Shown here: positions 3,609 through 59,234 of the stretch, piece by piece
Position numbering within the stretch: the stretch's first letter is position 1
Layout of the letters: the number at the start of each line of letters is the position of its first letter
Assembly: GCF_900110085.1 (NCBI RefSeq)
Contig: NZ_FOCK01000004.1
Span: 248,001 to 312,000 of the forward strand
Length of the DNA stretch: 64,000 bases
Reading direction: 5' to 3'
Source: Prevotella sp. ne3005
GTDB taxonomy: Bacteria; Bacteroidota; Bacteroidia; Bacteroidales; Bacteroidaceae
Made by a program: the position numbers and the translations under genes
Notes under the pieces: generated by a model
Told to the model about the DNA's origin: nothing
What the model saw: the letters and a program-made list of their open reading frames with translations, nothing else
Databases searched by the model: none

Positions 3609-6005
3609 ATGAATAGCACTAAGACTTTTGGATTGAATTGCTTATTTGTCGTGTTGGGGCTCCTCTTCGCAGGTACAGCCCAAGCACAGGATCGGCTGTA
3701 TGCCGATGAGTTCCCCTTAGGGGATGTCACCTTACTCGACGGACCGCTGAAGAAGGCCCGCGACCTGAACATCAGTGTGCTGATGAAATATGACAACGAC
3801 CGTCTGCTGGCACCTTATCTCAAGGAGGCAGGACTAACACCTAAGGGAAAGTCATATCCCAACTGGGACGGACTGGATGGTCACGTGGGTGGCCACTACC
3901 TGACGGCCTTGGCTATCAATGCCGCTACAGGCAGTAAGGAGTGTCAACAGCGTCTCGACTATTGGATCAGTGAACTGCAAGCCTGTGCCGATGCTAACGC
4001 CAAGAACCACCCGGAGTGGGGTAAGGGCTATGTGGGCGGTGTGCCTGGCAGCGATCGTATCTGGTCAGCCTTCAAGAAGGGCGACTTCGGACCCTATTCA
4101 GGGGCGTGGGTGCCTTTCTATAATCTTCATAAGATGTACGCAGGCCTGCGCGATGCGTGGGTGTATTGCGGCAACGAACAGGCAAAGGCGCTTTTCCTTG
4201 GTTTCTGCGACTGGGCCATCGACCTGACGGCGGGTCTTTCGGATGCCCAGATGGAACGTGCGCTCGATACAGAGCACGGCGGCATGAACGAGGTGCTGGC
4301 TGATGCCTATGCTATCACTGGCGAACAAAAATATCTTGATGTGGCTCGCCGTTTCTCCCATCGTCGTCTGCTCAACCCGTTGATGCAGCGTCGCGACTGT
4401 CTGGACAATATGCATGCCAACACACAGGTGCCTAAGGTGGTTGGTTTTGAGCGTATCGCCGAACTGGCTGGCGATGAGGCTTATCATACCGCTGGTGCTT
4501 ACTTCTGGGATATCGTCACAGGTGAGCGCTCACTGGCCTTCGGAGGTAACAGCCGTCGCGAGCACTTCCCCAGCAAGGAGGCTTGCCAGGACTTCGTGAC
4601 AGACATCGATGGCCCTGAGAGCTGTAACACCAACAACATGCTGAAGCTTACGGAGGATCTGCATCGCCGCAATCCAGAGGCACGTTATGCCGACTTCTTC
4701 GAGTTGGCCACCTTCAATCATATCCTTTCCACCCAGCATCCTGAACATGGTGGCTATGTGTATTTCACGTCGGCTCGTCCCCGCCATTACCGCAACTATT
4801 CTGCTCCCAACGAGGCCATGTGGTGCTGTGTAGGCACAGGTATGGAGAATCACGGTAAGTACGGTCAGTTTATCTATACCCATGTGGGCGAAGCCCTCTA
4901 TGTGAACCTCTTTGTGGCCTCTAAACTGAATTGGAAGGCGAAAGGTGTCACGATCCGTCAAGAGACCGACTTCCCCTATGCAGAGACCAGCAAAATCACC
5001 ATTGCTGAGGGTAAGGGCAAGTTTGCACTCAATGTGCGCTACCCGGGATGGGTGAAGCAGGGGCAGTTCTGCGTTAAGGTGAATGGACAACCCGTGAGCA
5101 TCGTCACAGGTCCCTCATCGTATGTCAGCATCGACCGTCAGTGGAAGAAGGGTGACATCGTCGAGATGACCTTCCCGATGTACAGTTATGTGAAGTATTT
5201 GCCGAACCTGCCGCAGTATATCGCTCTGATGCACGGCCCCGTGATGCTCGCCATGAAGACGGGTACGGAAGACCTGGCACATCTCATTGCCGATGACAGC
5301 CGTTTCGGACAGCTCGCCACAGGTAAGAAGCTGCCTACAGACCAGGCGCCTATCCTTATTAATAATAATATCGAGGATATCGCCAACCAGCTAGTGCCTG
5401 TCGAAGGCAAGCCCCTCCACTTCACCATCACTACCAAGATGGTTAACGAGATACGCAATGAGCTGATGCCGTTCTTCGATCTCCACGACGCCCGTTACAT
5501 GATGTACTGGCTCGCCCTCTCGGAGGACAGCTACAAGGGTTATCTCGACAATCTTGCCAAGCAGGAGCAGGAGCGTCAGGCACTCGAAGACCGCACCGTC
5601 GATAAGGTGCAGCCTGGTGAGCAGCAGCCTGAGAGCGACCACTTCATGGAGACTGATGACTCGTTCGTAGGCAACTCCAACGATGTGTTCTATCGCGATG
5701 CCAGCAACGGTCATTACTTCAGCTACCTGATGCAGACAGGTGGAAAGACTAACCTCAGCCTCCGCCTGAAGTACTGGGGCGTTGGTGAGTGGAAGAGCCA
5801 CGAGTTTGATATCTTCGTCGATGATGTGTTGGTGACATCAGTTAACAACACAGGCAAATACCGCATATCGAAGTTCATCTACGAGACCTATCCTGTACCA
5901 GCTGATGCGCTGAAAGGCAAGAAACAAGTACGCGTGAAGTTCGTGGCCAAACCCAAGAAGCAGGTCGGCGAGATATACGAAGTGAGACTTATACAGGGTG
6001 AGTAA
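3609..6005 (+). CDS. GH127/GH146 beta-L-arabinofuranosidase (DUF1680)
   Basis: Exported enzyme of 798 residues that should release beta-linked L-arabinofuranose. The signal peptide ends at AQAQ (about 27). The (alpha/alpha)6 barrel carries the family's zinc/cysteine site: Glu337 and Cys339 in PESCNTNN and the pair Cys406-Cys407 in MWCCVGTG. In characterised GH127/GH146 enzymes one of these cysteines is the nucleophile. C-terminal beta domains follow, the last one (about 655-798) resembling the extra sandwich domain of GH146-type Bacteroides enzymes. The length fits GH146 better than short GH127. It lies 128 bp before a GH51 gene that has its own promoter. Confidence 0.88.
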   Translation: MNSTKTFGLNCLFVVLGLLFAGTAQAQDRLYADEFPLGDVTLLDGPLKKARDLNISVLMKYDNDRLLAPYLKEAGLTPKGKSYPNWDGLDGHVGGHYLTALAINAATGSKECQQRLDYWISELQACADANAKNHPEWGKGYVGGVPGSDRIWSAFKKGDFGPYSGAWVPFYNLHKMYAGLRDAWVYCGNEQAKALFLGFCDWAIDLTAGLSDAQMERALDTEHGGMNEVLADAYAITGEQKYLDVARRFSHRRLLNPLMQRRDCLDNMHANTQVPKVVGFERIAELAGDEAYHTAGAYFWDIVTGERSLAFGGNSRREHFPSKEACQDFVTDIDGPESCNTNNMLKLTEDLHRRNPEARYADFFELATFNHILSTQHPEHGGYVYFTSARPRHYRNYSAPNEAMWCCVGTGMENHGKYGQFIYTHVGEALYVNLFVASKLNWKAKGVTIRQETDFPYAETSKITIAEGKGKFALNVRYPGWVKQGQFCVKVNGQPVSIVTGPSSYVSIDRQWKKGDIVEMTFPMYSYVKYLPNLPQYIALMHGPVMLAMKTGTEDLAHLIADDSRFGQLATGKKLPTDQAPILINNNIEDIANQLVPVEGKPLHFTITTKMVNEIRNELMPFFDLHDARYMMYWLALSEDSYKGYLDNLAKQEQERQALEDRTVDKVQPGEQQPESDHFMETDDSFVGNSNDVFYRDASNGHYFSYLMQTGGKTNLSLRLKYWGVGEWKSHEFDIFVDDVLVTSVNNTGKYRISKFIYETYPVPADALKGKKQVRVKFVAKPKKQVGEIYEVRLIQGE

Positions 6006-10194: not shown

Positions 10195-10525
10195 CTCAAA
10201 CACCCCCACACCCCACCCAAATCTCTCGGAAGCCCTTTATATATTAGGGGTTGAGCAGGGTTGGGTGTTCTCAAACACTCCACCTAACACTCCACCAACA
10301 CTCCACCAACACCCCACCAACTAGGCAACTTTTACAAGGATACTATTTAATGCCTCCTGAGTCAGCACACGTTAGTAGGGTTTTCAACGATCCAGACAAA
10401 TTGATTAGTCTCAGGGTGGGGTGTTGGTGTAGTCTTGGTGGGGTGTTGGTAAACACCCCACCACGCTCAAACCCTAGTAAACAGAGGGCTTCCGAGAGAT
10501 TTGGGTGGGGTGTGGGGTGTTTGAG
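10195..10525. repeat. 331-bp long inverted repeat with tandem-repeat arms
   Basis: Outer arms 10195-10236 and 10485-10525 are reverse complements over about 41 bases with a single-base indel (CCCCC against CCCC). The pairing continues imperfectly inward through C/A-rich 11-bp tandem units (AACACTCCACC, 10274-10318) on the left and G/T-rich units (GGTGGGGTGTT) on the right. The unpaired centre is about 10320-10400. No gene is convincing inside it. It fills much of the 10002-10660 gap between the lipoprotein promoter and the GH51 stop. It could be a MITE-like element or a structured RNA. Confidence 0.8.
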
Positions 10526-10538
10526 GCGTTTTATTCTT

Positions 10539-10648
10539 ATTTATAGGGTAGCAAACTGTCCGTTTACAGGGAGTAAACCCAGAGTTCCCACGTTGGGAAC
10601 TCAGAGAAACTCGTAAGCAAACTCCCAGTAATCCCGTAGCGGACAGTC
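10539..10648. repeat. 22-bp-period dyad array A (about 5 units)
   Basis: Units start at 10539, 10561, 10583, 10605 and 10627. The second unit centres on GTTTACAGGGAGTAAAC and the third on AGTTCCCACGTTGGGAACT, a perfect 8-bp dyad with CGT centre. The first, fourth and fifth are decayed but keep the phase. It lies 12 bp beyond the stop of the GH51 gene at 10661. Confidence 0.7.
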
Positions 10649-27366: not shown

Positions 27367-27394
27367 TGCCACCTTTAGCTTGGGTGGCATTTTT
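27367..27394 (+). terminator. Terminator after GH3
   Basis: TGCCACC / GGTGGCA stem followed by TTTTT on the plus strand. Confidence 0.85.
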
Positions 27395-27480
27395 GGTTTA
27401 CCCGGAGTAAAGTCCAGGTTTACTCGGAGTAAAGTCCAGGTTTACTCGGAGTAAAGTCCAGGTTTACTCGGAGTAAAGTC
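27395..27480. repeat. 22-bp-period dyad array B (4 units)
   Basis: Four head-to-tail copies (starts 27395, 27417, 27439, 27461), nearly identical. The only internal change is CCC for CTC in the first; the last is cut by 2 bp. Each has the dyad TTTACT-CGG-AGTAAA and a GTCCAG tail. The array begins at the T-run of the GH3 terminator. Confidence 0.95.
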
Positions 27481-44542: not shown

Positions 44543-44630
44543 CGGAGTTTGATGGGACTAAACCTGGACTTTAGTCCGAGCAAAGTCCAGGTTTGTGACG
44601 TACAAAGTTAGTCTTTTATAGGGCCAAAGA
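44543..44630. repeat. 22-bp-period dyad array C (4 units)
   Basis: Read on the minus strand, units start at 44630, 44608, 44586 and 44564. Their cores are TTTGGC-CCT-ATAAAA, TTTGTA-CGT-CACAAA, TTTGCT-CGG-ACTAAA and TTTAGT-CCC-ATCAAA. The third unit shares 24 of 26 bases with array B. It lies 3' of the UDG-family gene. Confidence 0.75.
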
Positions 44631-49170: not shown

Positions 49171-49258
49171 TGTTTCCTTCGAGGAAACAATTATTTTCTC
49201 AGTGGGGAAACACCGTTTTCTCGTCTGGAAAACGATATTTTCTCACTGAGGAAATGAT
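49171..49258. repeat. 22-bp-period dyad array D (4 units)
   Basis: Units at 49171, 49193, 49215 and 49237 with cores TTTCCT-TCG-AGGAAA, TTTTCTC-AGT-GGGGAAA, GTTTTCTC-GTC-TGGAAAAC and ATTTTCTC-ACT-GAGGAAAT. It fills the gap between convergent mutS and lgt. A weaker in-phase unit may precede it (49149). Confidence 0.85.
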
Positions 49259-59154: not shown

Positions 59155-59234
59155 ATTTTACTCTAAGTAAAGTGGGAGTTTACTCGGAGGAAAGTGTCAT
59201 TTTACCCGTCATAAACTCTAGGTTTCCTGACGAC
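59155..59234. repeat. 22-bp-period dyad array E (3-4 units)
   Basis: Units at 59155, 59177, 59199 and a partial one at 59221, with cores TTTTACT-CTA-AGTAAAG, TTTACT-CGG-AGGAAA, TTTTACC-CGT-CATAAA and TTTCCT-GAC. It lies 57 bp beyond the uvrC stop. Phase and centre position equal those of arrays A-D. Confidence 0.75.

Follow-up and report, generated by a model that had tools for sequence, protein, structure and literature searches.

Array B, a run of four 22-bp units in the genome of a Prevotella, is best read as a member of a class of very short tandem arrays with two to four units each. The constant feature of the class is a step of 22 bp (about two helical turns), the units are often dyad-symmetric, and the letters fall into families that vary with species and locus. 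With a probability of roughly 0.4, we favor the reading that these arrays act on the level of DNA, as a short and dispersed repeat that is non-autonomous, and that their half-sites are read independently by a putative protein needing sites on one face of the DNA every two turns. Such a repeat would land and turn over in tolerant DNA, namely the gaps past terminators and the linkers between protein domains.

The window, that is, the whole stretch of 64,000 nucleotides that was analyzed, corresponds to positions 248001-312000 of contig C12 (389,628 bp) in the 3.57-Mb source genome (G000). Array B, an adjoining hairpin and four further arrays were located in it as follows:

10563..10599, no strand assigned: array A, one TTTACAGGGAGTAAA unit and, 22 bp on, TTCCCACGTTGGGAA, so that two motif families stand in one array; neighboring units degenerate
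27367..27389, forward strand: terminator-like hairpin of 8 pairs followed by TTTTT, 3' of a GH3 gene; array B starts directly after it
27395..27480, no strand assigned: array B, four 22-bp units with the dyad TTTACTC-S-GAGTAAA and the 7-bp spacer GTCCAGG
44548..44606, no strand assigned: array C, three degenerate units
49173..49253, no strand assigned: array D, four units with the 22-bp step kept and a third motif, TTTC..GAAA
59157..59215, no strand assigned: array E, three units of the TTTACTC family, the third being the recurrent variant TTTACCCGTCATAAA

The unit of array B, GGTTTACTCGGAGTAAAGTCCA, is repeated four times at 27395-27480 (TRF score 165, 98% matches), the first unit reading TTTACCCGGAGTAAA. 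The dyad centers lie at 27404, 27426, 27448 and 27470, and the outer arm pairs are complementary in 5, 6, 6 and 6 out of 6 cases. An earlier note on this DNA had described four 22-bp units at these positions with a center of three nucleotides; the units stand, and the center has to be narrowed, as pairing in the three perfect units reaches the central base and gives TTTACTC-S-GAGTAAA (7-1-7). The same note was right to set CRISPR aside: the units of array B abut and the 7-bp spacer is itself repeated, so unique spacers of about repeat length are absent from the array.

Matches to the 15-base pattern TTTACTCGGAGTAAA with up to 3 mismatches number 17 on both strands of the window, against 1.29 expected, and none of 100 shuffles reached as many. 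When triple phased dyads with at least 15/18 pairs were sought at steps of 15-30 bp, the window returned 22 bp twice (arrays B and E) and 16 bp once, arrays A, C and D falling below this bar. Array A (centers 10570 and 10592, two good units with 5 and 6 pairs) and array C (centers 44555, 44577 and 44599, with 4, 4 and 5 pairs) are weak; array D is centered at 49180, 49202, 49224 and 49246 on a motif unlike that of array B, and array E at 59164, 59186 and 59208. The 22-bp period that had been reported for these four other gaps is therefore kept in all of them, weakly in A and C.

A 22-bp step with variable letters

The further in-phase arrays for which the earlier note proposed to scan the genome are present. 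With up to 2 mismatches, TTTACTCNGAGTAAA has 104 sites in G000 against 9 for a reversed control, and the distances from strong sites to other sites on C12 peak at 22 (14 cases), 44 (7), 11 (3) and 66 (2). The unit variant TTTATGACGGGTAAA recurs, on either strand, at three C12 loci. Four units were counted in 3 of 13 C12 arrays and one to three in the other 10. The family is patchy in the genus: a two-unit pattern (up to 2 mismatches) matched 11 of 398 genus genomes and none of the remaining 387, with 48 matches in G000, 57 in G365, 40 in G220, 32 in G091, 6 in G406 and 1 in each of six others; 3 of the 176 high-quality genus genomes are among those matched. A scan of GTDB contigs for exact matches, with any gap of 3-25 allowed, returned 44 stretches, 31 of them of Prevotella/Bacteroides type (one labeled Saccharibacteria). 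As 30 of these 31 have a gap of exactly 7 (step 22) and one a gap of 8 although other gaps were allowed, the 22-bp distance is strict. In the remaining 13 stretches, 10 of them belonging to an Olavius symbiont, the gap is 9-20 and never gives the 22-bp step.

The Olavius algarvensis Gamma 3 symbiont (L034, L037, L038, L041, L052, L058, L062-L064, L073) carries pairs of the palindrome TTTACTC-N-GAGTAAA with gaps of 9-20 bp, apparently an unrelated dispersed palindrome. A MAG labeled Bacteroides (L069, 3759-3860) has five or six in-phase units of the CTTTAATCGGATTAAAG type, starting a few bases past the apparent stop of an AraC-like gene.

The step was also recovered by a lag scan that assumes no motif, in which a 33-base window had to show at least 25 matches to itself when shifted and periods of up to 10 bp were filtered out. 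In samples of four Prevotella genomes (986 kb together), lag 22 was found 12 times on C12 of G000 (four of these being 11-bp arrays), 7 times in G203, 8 in G141 and 2 in G016. Against these 29 cases at lag 22, the same samples gave 13 at its double, lag 44, 2 at lag 33, 3 at lag 21 and 6 at lag 11, and no further lag between 15 and 45 exceeded 2. Lag 22 was absent from the controls G043, G041 and Escherichia coli (362 kb). In a fifth Prevotella, G069, it was found 2 times against 4 for lag 24 and was not dominant; the signal is not universal in Prevotella. Without the filter, C12 gave lags 22 (12), 11 (6), and 16 and 24 (5 each), the last two stemming from a class of 8-bp repeats that the filter removes. 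This 8-bp tandem class is itself common in G000, with C12 lags of 8, 16, 24, 32 and 40.

Single genomes hold many arrays with unrelated letters. A second family, TTCCCA-N3-TGGGAA, has the same 22-bp step. Of 25 Prevotella genomes selected for having a cobB gene, 18 contain it, with 84 counts in G203, 22 in G000 and 0 in the controls; across the bacterial family, 7 of 301 genomes carry it, and these belong to 2 of 30 genera. The earlier picture of a single sequence design had to be given up, as this second family and many locus-specific motifs share the step. These observations suggest that the step, and not the sequence, defines the arrays and that it is the spacing which is read by some component of the cell. 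In the samples of G000, G203 and G141, an array occurs roughly every 25-50 kb.

A purely mutational origin, in which slippage or template switching would make and homogenize 22-bp units locally with no dedicated factor, seems to us unlikely. It would account for locus-private motifs, such as that of cobB in G162 and those of the G141 arrays, which have no significant dyads, as well as for the placement of arrays in unconstrained DNA, including two linkers that hold other repeats, and unfiltered C12 also had lags of 16 and 24 from the 8-bp class. Slippage should, however, yield many unit lengths, and the filtered scan gave 29 cases at lag 22 against 3 at lag 21, with most others at 2 or fewer. 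Motif families common to unrelated loci and to different species, together with the absence of lag 22 from the controls, also argue against it.

A phage origin was rejected as well, since the two-unit TTTACTC pattern was found in 0 viral contigs and the TTCCCA pattern in 5, two of which were examined. One viral contig (L290) has a TTCCCA array at 5633-5669 between integrase and endolysin genes, with a reverse transcriptase gene nearby.

Dyads and half-sites

An arm-based test, which leaves out arrays of period 11 or less, found a unit dyad at p<0.05 in 30 of 56 lag-22 arrays, against 2.8 expected. The proportion was 20/29 at chosen gene loci and 10/27 in unselected stretches, the latter being made up of 5/8 in G000, 4/7 in G203, 0/8 in G141, 0/2 in G016 and 1/2 in G069. 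A circular-dyad statistic was weaker (19/61 at p<0.05). Dyads are common but not general, and the step is the more constant feature. The lack of dyads in G141 and G016, together with the failure of lag 22 to dominate in G069, counts against the dispersed-repeat reading.

Covariation between the arms was examined in the TTTACTC family only, in units with up to 4 mismatches and an in-phase neighbor, taken from the fetched loci, which are a subset of the genome sites. At the variable arm pair 5/11 (C or G), complementary combinations numbered 42/66 against 41.4 in shuffled units, 28/48 against 27.5, and 8/16 against 8.5; compensatory change at this pair was not found beyond shuffles in this family. 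Complementarity was slightly in excess at pair 6/10 in G000, where 50 of 500 shuffles reached the same level, and in RUG14357 at pairs 1/15 and 4/12, where 38 and 24 of 500 did. The two halves of TTTACTC units vary largely independently, like half-sites rather than stems.

These data bear directly on the two options of the earlier note, DNA bound by a protein or small RNA hairpins strung together in 3' UTRs, and it is the DNA-level option that fares better. An RNA function, with hairpin chains ending transcription or protecting mRNA ends, appears to us most improbable. Its attraction is that, for both strands, array B gives a much stronger fold than its shuffles do (z -5.4 and -5.5) and that the 3' end of a gene adjoins each window array in the ORF list. 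The fold obtained for array B as RNA is, however, one long hairpin (-32 kcal/mol, shuffles -16.9), and a single 22-mer folds without the dyad hairpin. The lack of covariation between the arms, the folding of the array into a single long hairpin and the place of array B beyond a terminator-like hairpin disfavor RNA hairpins; arrays inside genes and in divergent gaps, and the lack of any Rfam match in the window at the gathering score, point the same way. The description of the arrays as lying 3' of genes is accordingly true of the window and fails as a general rule, 4 of the 8 arrays in the G141 sample lying in divergent gaps and other copies inside genes.

The provision of stop codons in all frames (22 = 1 mod 3) was also considered as a purpose and rejected, since arrays are read through in the cobB, GH92 and methyltransferase genes and other families have no TAA.

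From the constancy of the step, the presence of dyads and the independence of the two halves we infer a trans-acting protein that would read half-sites on one face of the DNA.

Positions, turnover and spread of the arrays

In four genome samples, 26 of 32 arrays were intergenic in sequence that is 88-93% ORF according to a crude gene caller. Of the 32 positions, the 15 in G000 were listed by hand, with array D and the 11-bp arrays left out. The intergenic gaps comprised 15 co-directional, 5 convergent and 5 divergent ones and 1 at a contig end. The other 6 arrays lay in ORFs, three of them long (425, 870 and 1003 aa) and three short and doubtful.

Arrays within genes are found in frame at three places in G000. 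One separates the CbiA and GATase_3 domains of cobB, and a second directly follows the catalytic domain encoded by a GH92 gene. The third, which has the TTCCCA motif, lies in an ORF of 432 aa whose domains are THUMP-like and PG_1098 ferredoxin-like; by our own reading this ORF encodes a methyltransferase. Gene loci of relatives were taken from the best 30 of 94, 137 and 71 matching genomes. Among the best 30 loci, the cobB linker contains 22-bp arrays in 17 of 29 relatives, often as three units (66 bp), with motifs such as GTTCCCACGCTGGGAAC, ATTCCATTGCAATGGATT, AGTCCG..CGGACT and GTTTGCTCCGTCCAAAC; the linker of the THUMP-like gene contains them in 11 of 29 (counted from coordinates, again among the best 30 loci), with differing motifs, and several other relatives have shorter linkers there. 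The changing motif of the cobB arrays would be explained equally well by arrays that have long been in place and turn over as by repeated landing. The cobB tree (28 rows, 25 inner branches) is mostly unresolved and uninformative, only 3 inner branches being well supported. The cobB motif of G162 was not found elsewhere in that genome with up to 1 mismatch, and a motif confined to cobB speaks against the dispersed-repeat reading.

In many relatives, cobB is represented by a pair of matches that cover about residues 1-219 and 254-443. The two are often out of frame with each other or overlap by a few bases, and the split falls at the linker that carries arrays elsewhere. Array-bearing linkers also hold inserted-looking repeats, namely a long inverted repeat (L187) and elements of the CTCCCC..GGGGAG type (L119, L124).

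Among the best 30 loci, the 600 bp past the GH3 gene, where array B lies in G000, were readable in 26 of 29 relatives, and the TTTACTC family was found in 0 of these 26; a different 22-bp array follows the gene in L218 alone. L210, L215 and L220 stand outside this count, L210 and L220 having no array in the 190-230 bp downstream. The sequence 3' of the GH3 gene differs among the relatives compared. In addition, two C12 loci resemble each other in both of their flanks (about 88% and 98%) and enclose different arrays, and 14 of 31 G000 array loci share nothing of at least 30 bp outside the array with the other loci compared. The loci that share the array alone, the absence of array B at 26/26 GH3 orthologues and the like flanks around different arrays all support the dispersed-repeat reading. 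Patchy families, likeness that ends with the array and the tolerance of linkers are what suggest a short selfish repeat, whose copies would move and of which the host would need no particular copy. Against this reading, the likeness to another locus extends beyond the array in the remaining 17 of 31, indicating that part of the spread took place via larger modules or gene duplication.

One larger shared element was considered and rejected: some of these 17 loci lie next to 11-bp repeat modules, and no single element fits all. Modules built from 11-bp repeats (CACCCCACC / GGTGGGGTGTT) form an inverted pair around a shared core at window positions 10195-10308 and 10415-10525, and similar modules lie at C12:66470-66590, ~39500 and ~207250. 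One of them directly follows the end of a gene, which we take to resemble a VirE/DUF3874-type family. At C12:81236-81610 (L093) and C12:122745-123080 (L095), a 22-bp array stands between two inverted runs of 11-bp repeats (GTTCTACTTAA / TTAAGTAGAAC, and CTCTACTAAAC / its inverse, respectively), like a composite element. Long AT-rich palindromes of the ATATATTATATATATATTATATTATAATATAATATATAT type recur beside some arrays (L003, L004, L007); those at L003 and L004 adjoin a repeated gene, whose C-terminus resembles DUF4248.

The same positions bear on a host-useful role, in which a nucleoid-type protein would polymerize at the two-turn step and the arrays would help to fold or insulate the chromosome while their position and sequence drift. 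We regard this role as rather doubtful. Array B is missing past every GH3 orthologue that could be read (26/26), a different 22-bp array being present at just one of them, and any given motif is patchily distributed. A strict step without sequence conservation, independent half-sites, the density noted above for the samples of G000, G203 and G141 and the intergenic position of 26/32 arrays are, on the other hand, what such a role would lead one to expect, and a similar proposal for constant-size repeats appears in PMC8161180.

Relation to known repeats and wider meaning

Two well-known kinds of element invite comparison. Plasmid iterons are about 22 bp long, thus about two turns like the Prevotella arrays, and are read by an initiator protein; they cluster at an origin, whereas the Prevotella arrays are dispersed. 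Rickettsia palindromic elements are palindromic repeats that lie in frame inside coding genes, as some Prevotella arrays do; unlike these, they are longer single palindromes without 22-bp phasing.

A known class of mobile palindromes, either REPs moved by a RAYT or a MITE such as BrickBuilt, is in our view very unlikely to include the arrays. Like REPs, as portrayed in the available parts of PMC3733652, the arrays are short, palindromic, dispersed, mostly intergenic and sometimes within genes, and REPs too have been suggested to be mobile; BrickBuilt of Porphyromonas gingivalis, a member of a related bacterial group, is likewise a dispersed and spacerless tandem of a short unit, as described in the available parts of PMC4596501. 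Set against REP/BIME sequences (PMC3733652, available parts), the Prevotella arrays have strict 22-bp head-to-tail phasing and independent half-sites, and the unit GGTTTACTCGGAGTAAAGTCCA of array B, the one array inspected by eye, has no GTAG or CGTC tag. Within the sensitivity of Pfam, PF01797 (the Y1, RAYT-type transposase) has 0 matches in G000, which is 99.88% complete, and such a transposase was rejected as the mover on this ground; 5 of 10 genomes searched have PF01797 matches, including the array carriers G365 and G091 (weak partial matches). According to the same parts of PMC4596501, BrickBuilt has a unit of 23 nt, not 22, a leader and a tail with inverted ends, and a location that is always intergenic, which that of the Prevotella arrays is not. 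At a length of at least 30 bp, no leader, tail or terminal repeat is common to the array loci, 14 of 31 in G000 sharing nothing of that size outside the array.

The nearest known kind is that of constant-size, variable-sequence tandem repeats (20-21 or 52 nt), which Subirana and Messeguer described in Bacillus and other bacteria (PMC8161180). In the available parts of that paper, repeats of 20-23 nt are said in the introduction to occur in many groups, 20-21 nt is equated with two turns, protein polymerization on DNA or small RNAs are suggested, and the repeats are reported to have no known function. Both kinds have a constant unit near two turns and several unrelated, species-specific families per genome, mostly outside genes (PMC8161180, available parts). 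A single dominant repeat length, as in those repeats, is present in the G000, G203, G141 and G016 samples and absent in G069; species-specific sequences are present at 22 bp, yet the TTCCCA family is common to 18 of 25 chosen genomes. As far as the available parts of PMC8161180 go, the Prevotella units differ in being 22 bp long, within the 20-23 range and outside the 20-21 class, in being often dyad-symmetric, and in occurring in frame in orthologous linkers with motif turnover; they also form arrays of two to four units (four in B), whereas that search required at least 4 repeats. The words "Prevotella", "Bacteroidetes" and "palindrom" do not occur in the main text of PMC8161180, nor do "Prevotella", "Bacteroid" and "22 bp" in the available parts of the 2019 paper by the same authors (PMC6749651), and no description of 22-bp arrays in Prevotella was found among the titles and abstract openings listed from the open-licence PMC literature. 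The earlier opinion that no named repeat family has this design has to be tempered with regard to constant-size, variable-sequence tandem repeats of 20-21 nt, which have been described in bacteria (PMC8161180, available parts).

Tentatively, and as a possibility that we would not call probable, the arrays may represent an element class defined by its spacing, often with dyads, with a two-turn step and interchangeable half-sites, and made and spread by a putative protein system whose specificity changes between species; such a class would be a dyad-symmetric, partly mobile counterpart of the constant-size repeats of other bacteria, with a shared mechanism. If so, equivalent linkers and gaps would hold different letters in each species. 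Dyads with independent half-sites point to a dimer that reads DNA. In orthologous linkers, such as those of cobB and the THUMP-like methyltransferase gene, the step is retained as the motif turns over, so that the process can be tracked, and the existence of genus genomes with and without a given family makes a search for the responsible gene possible. Constant-length repeats of this type enter proteins in frame.
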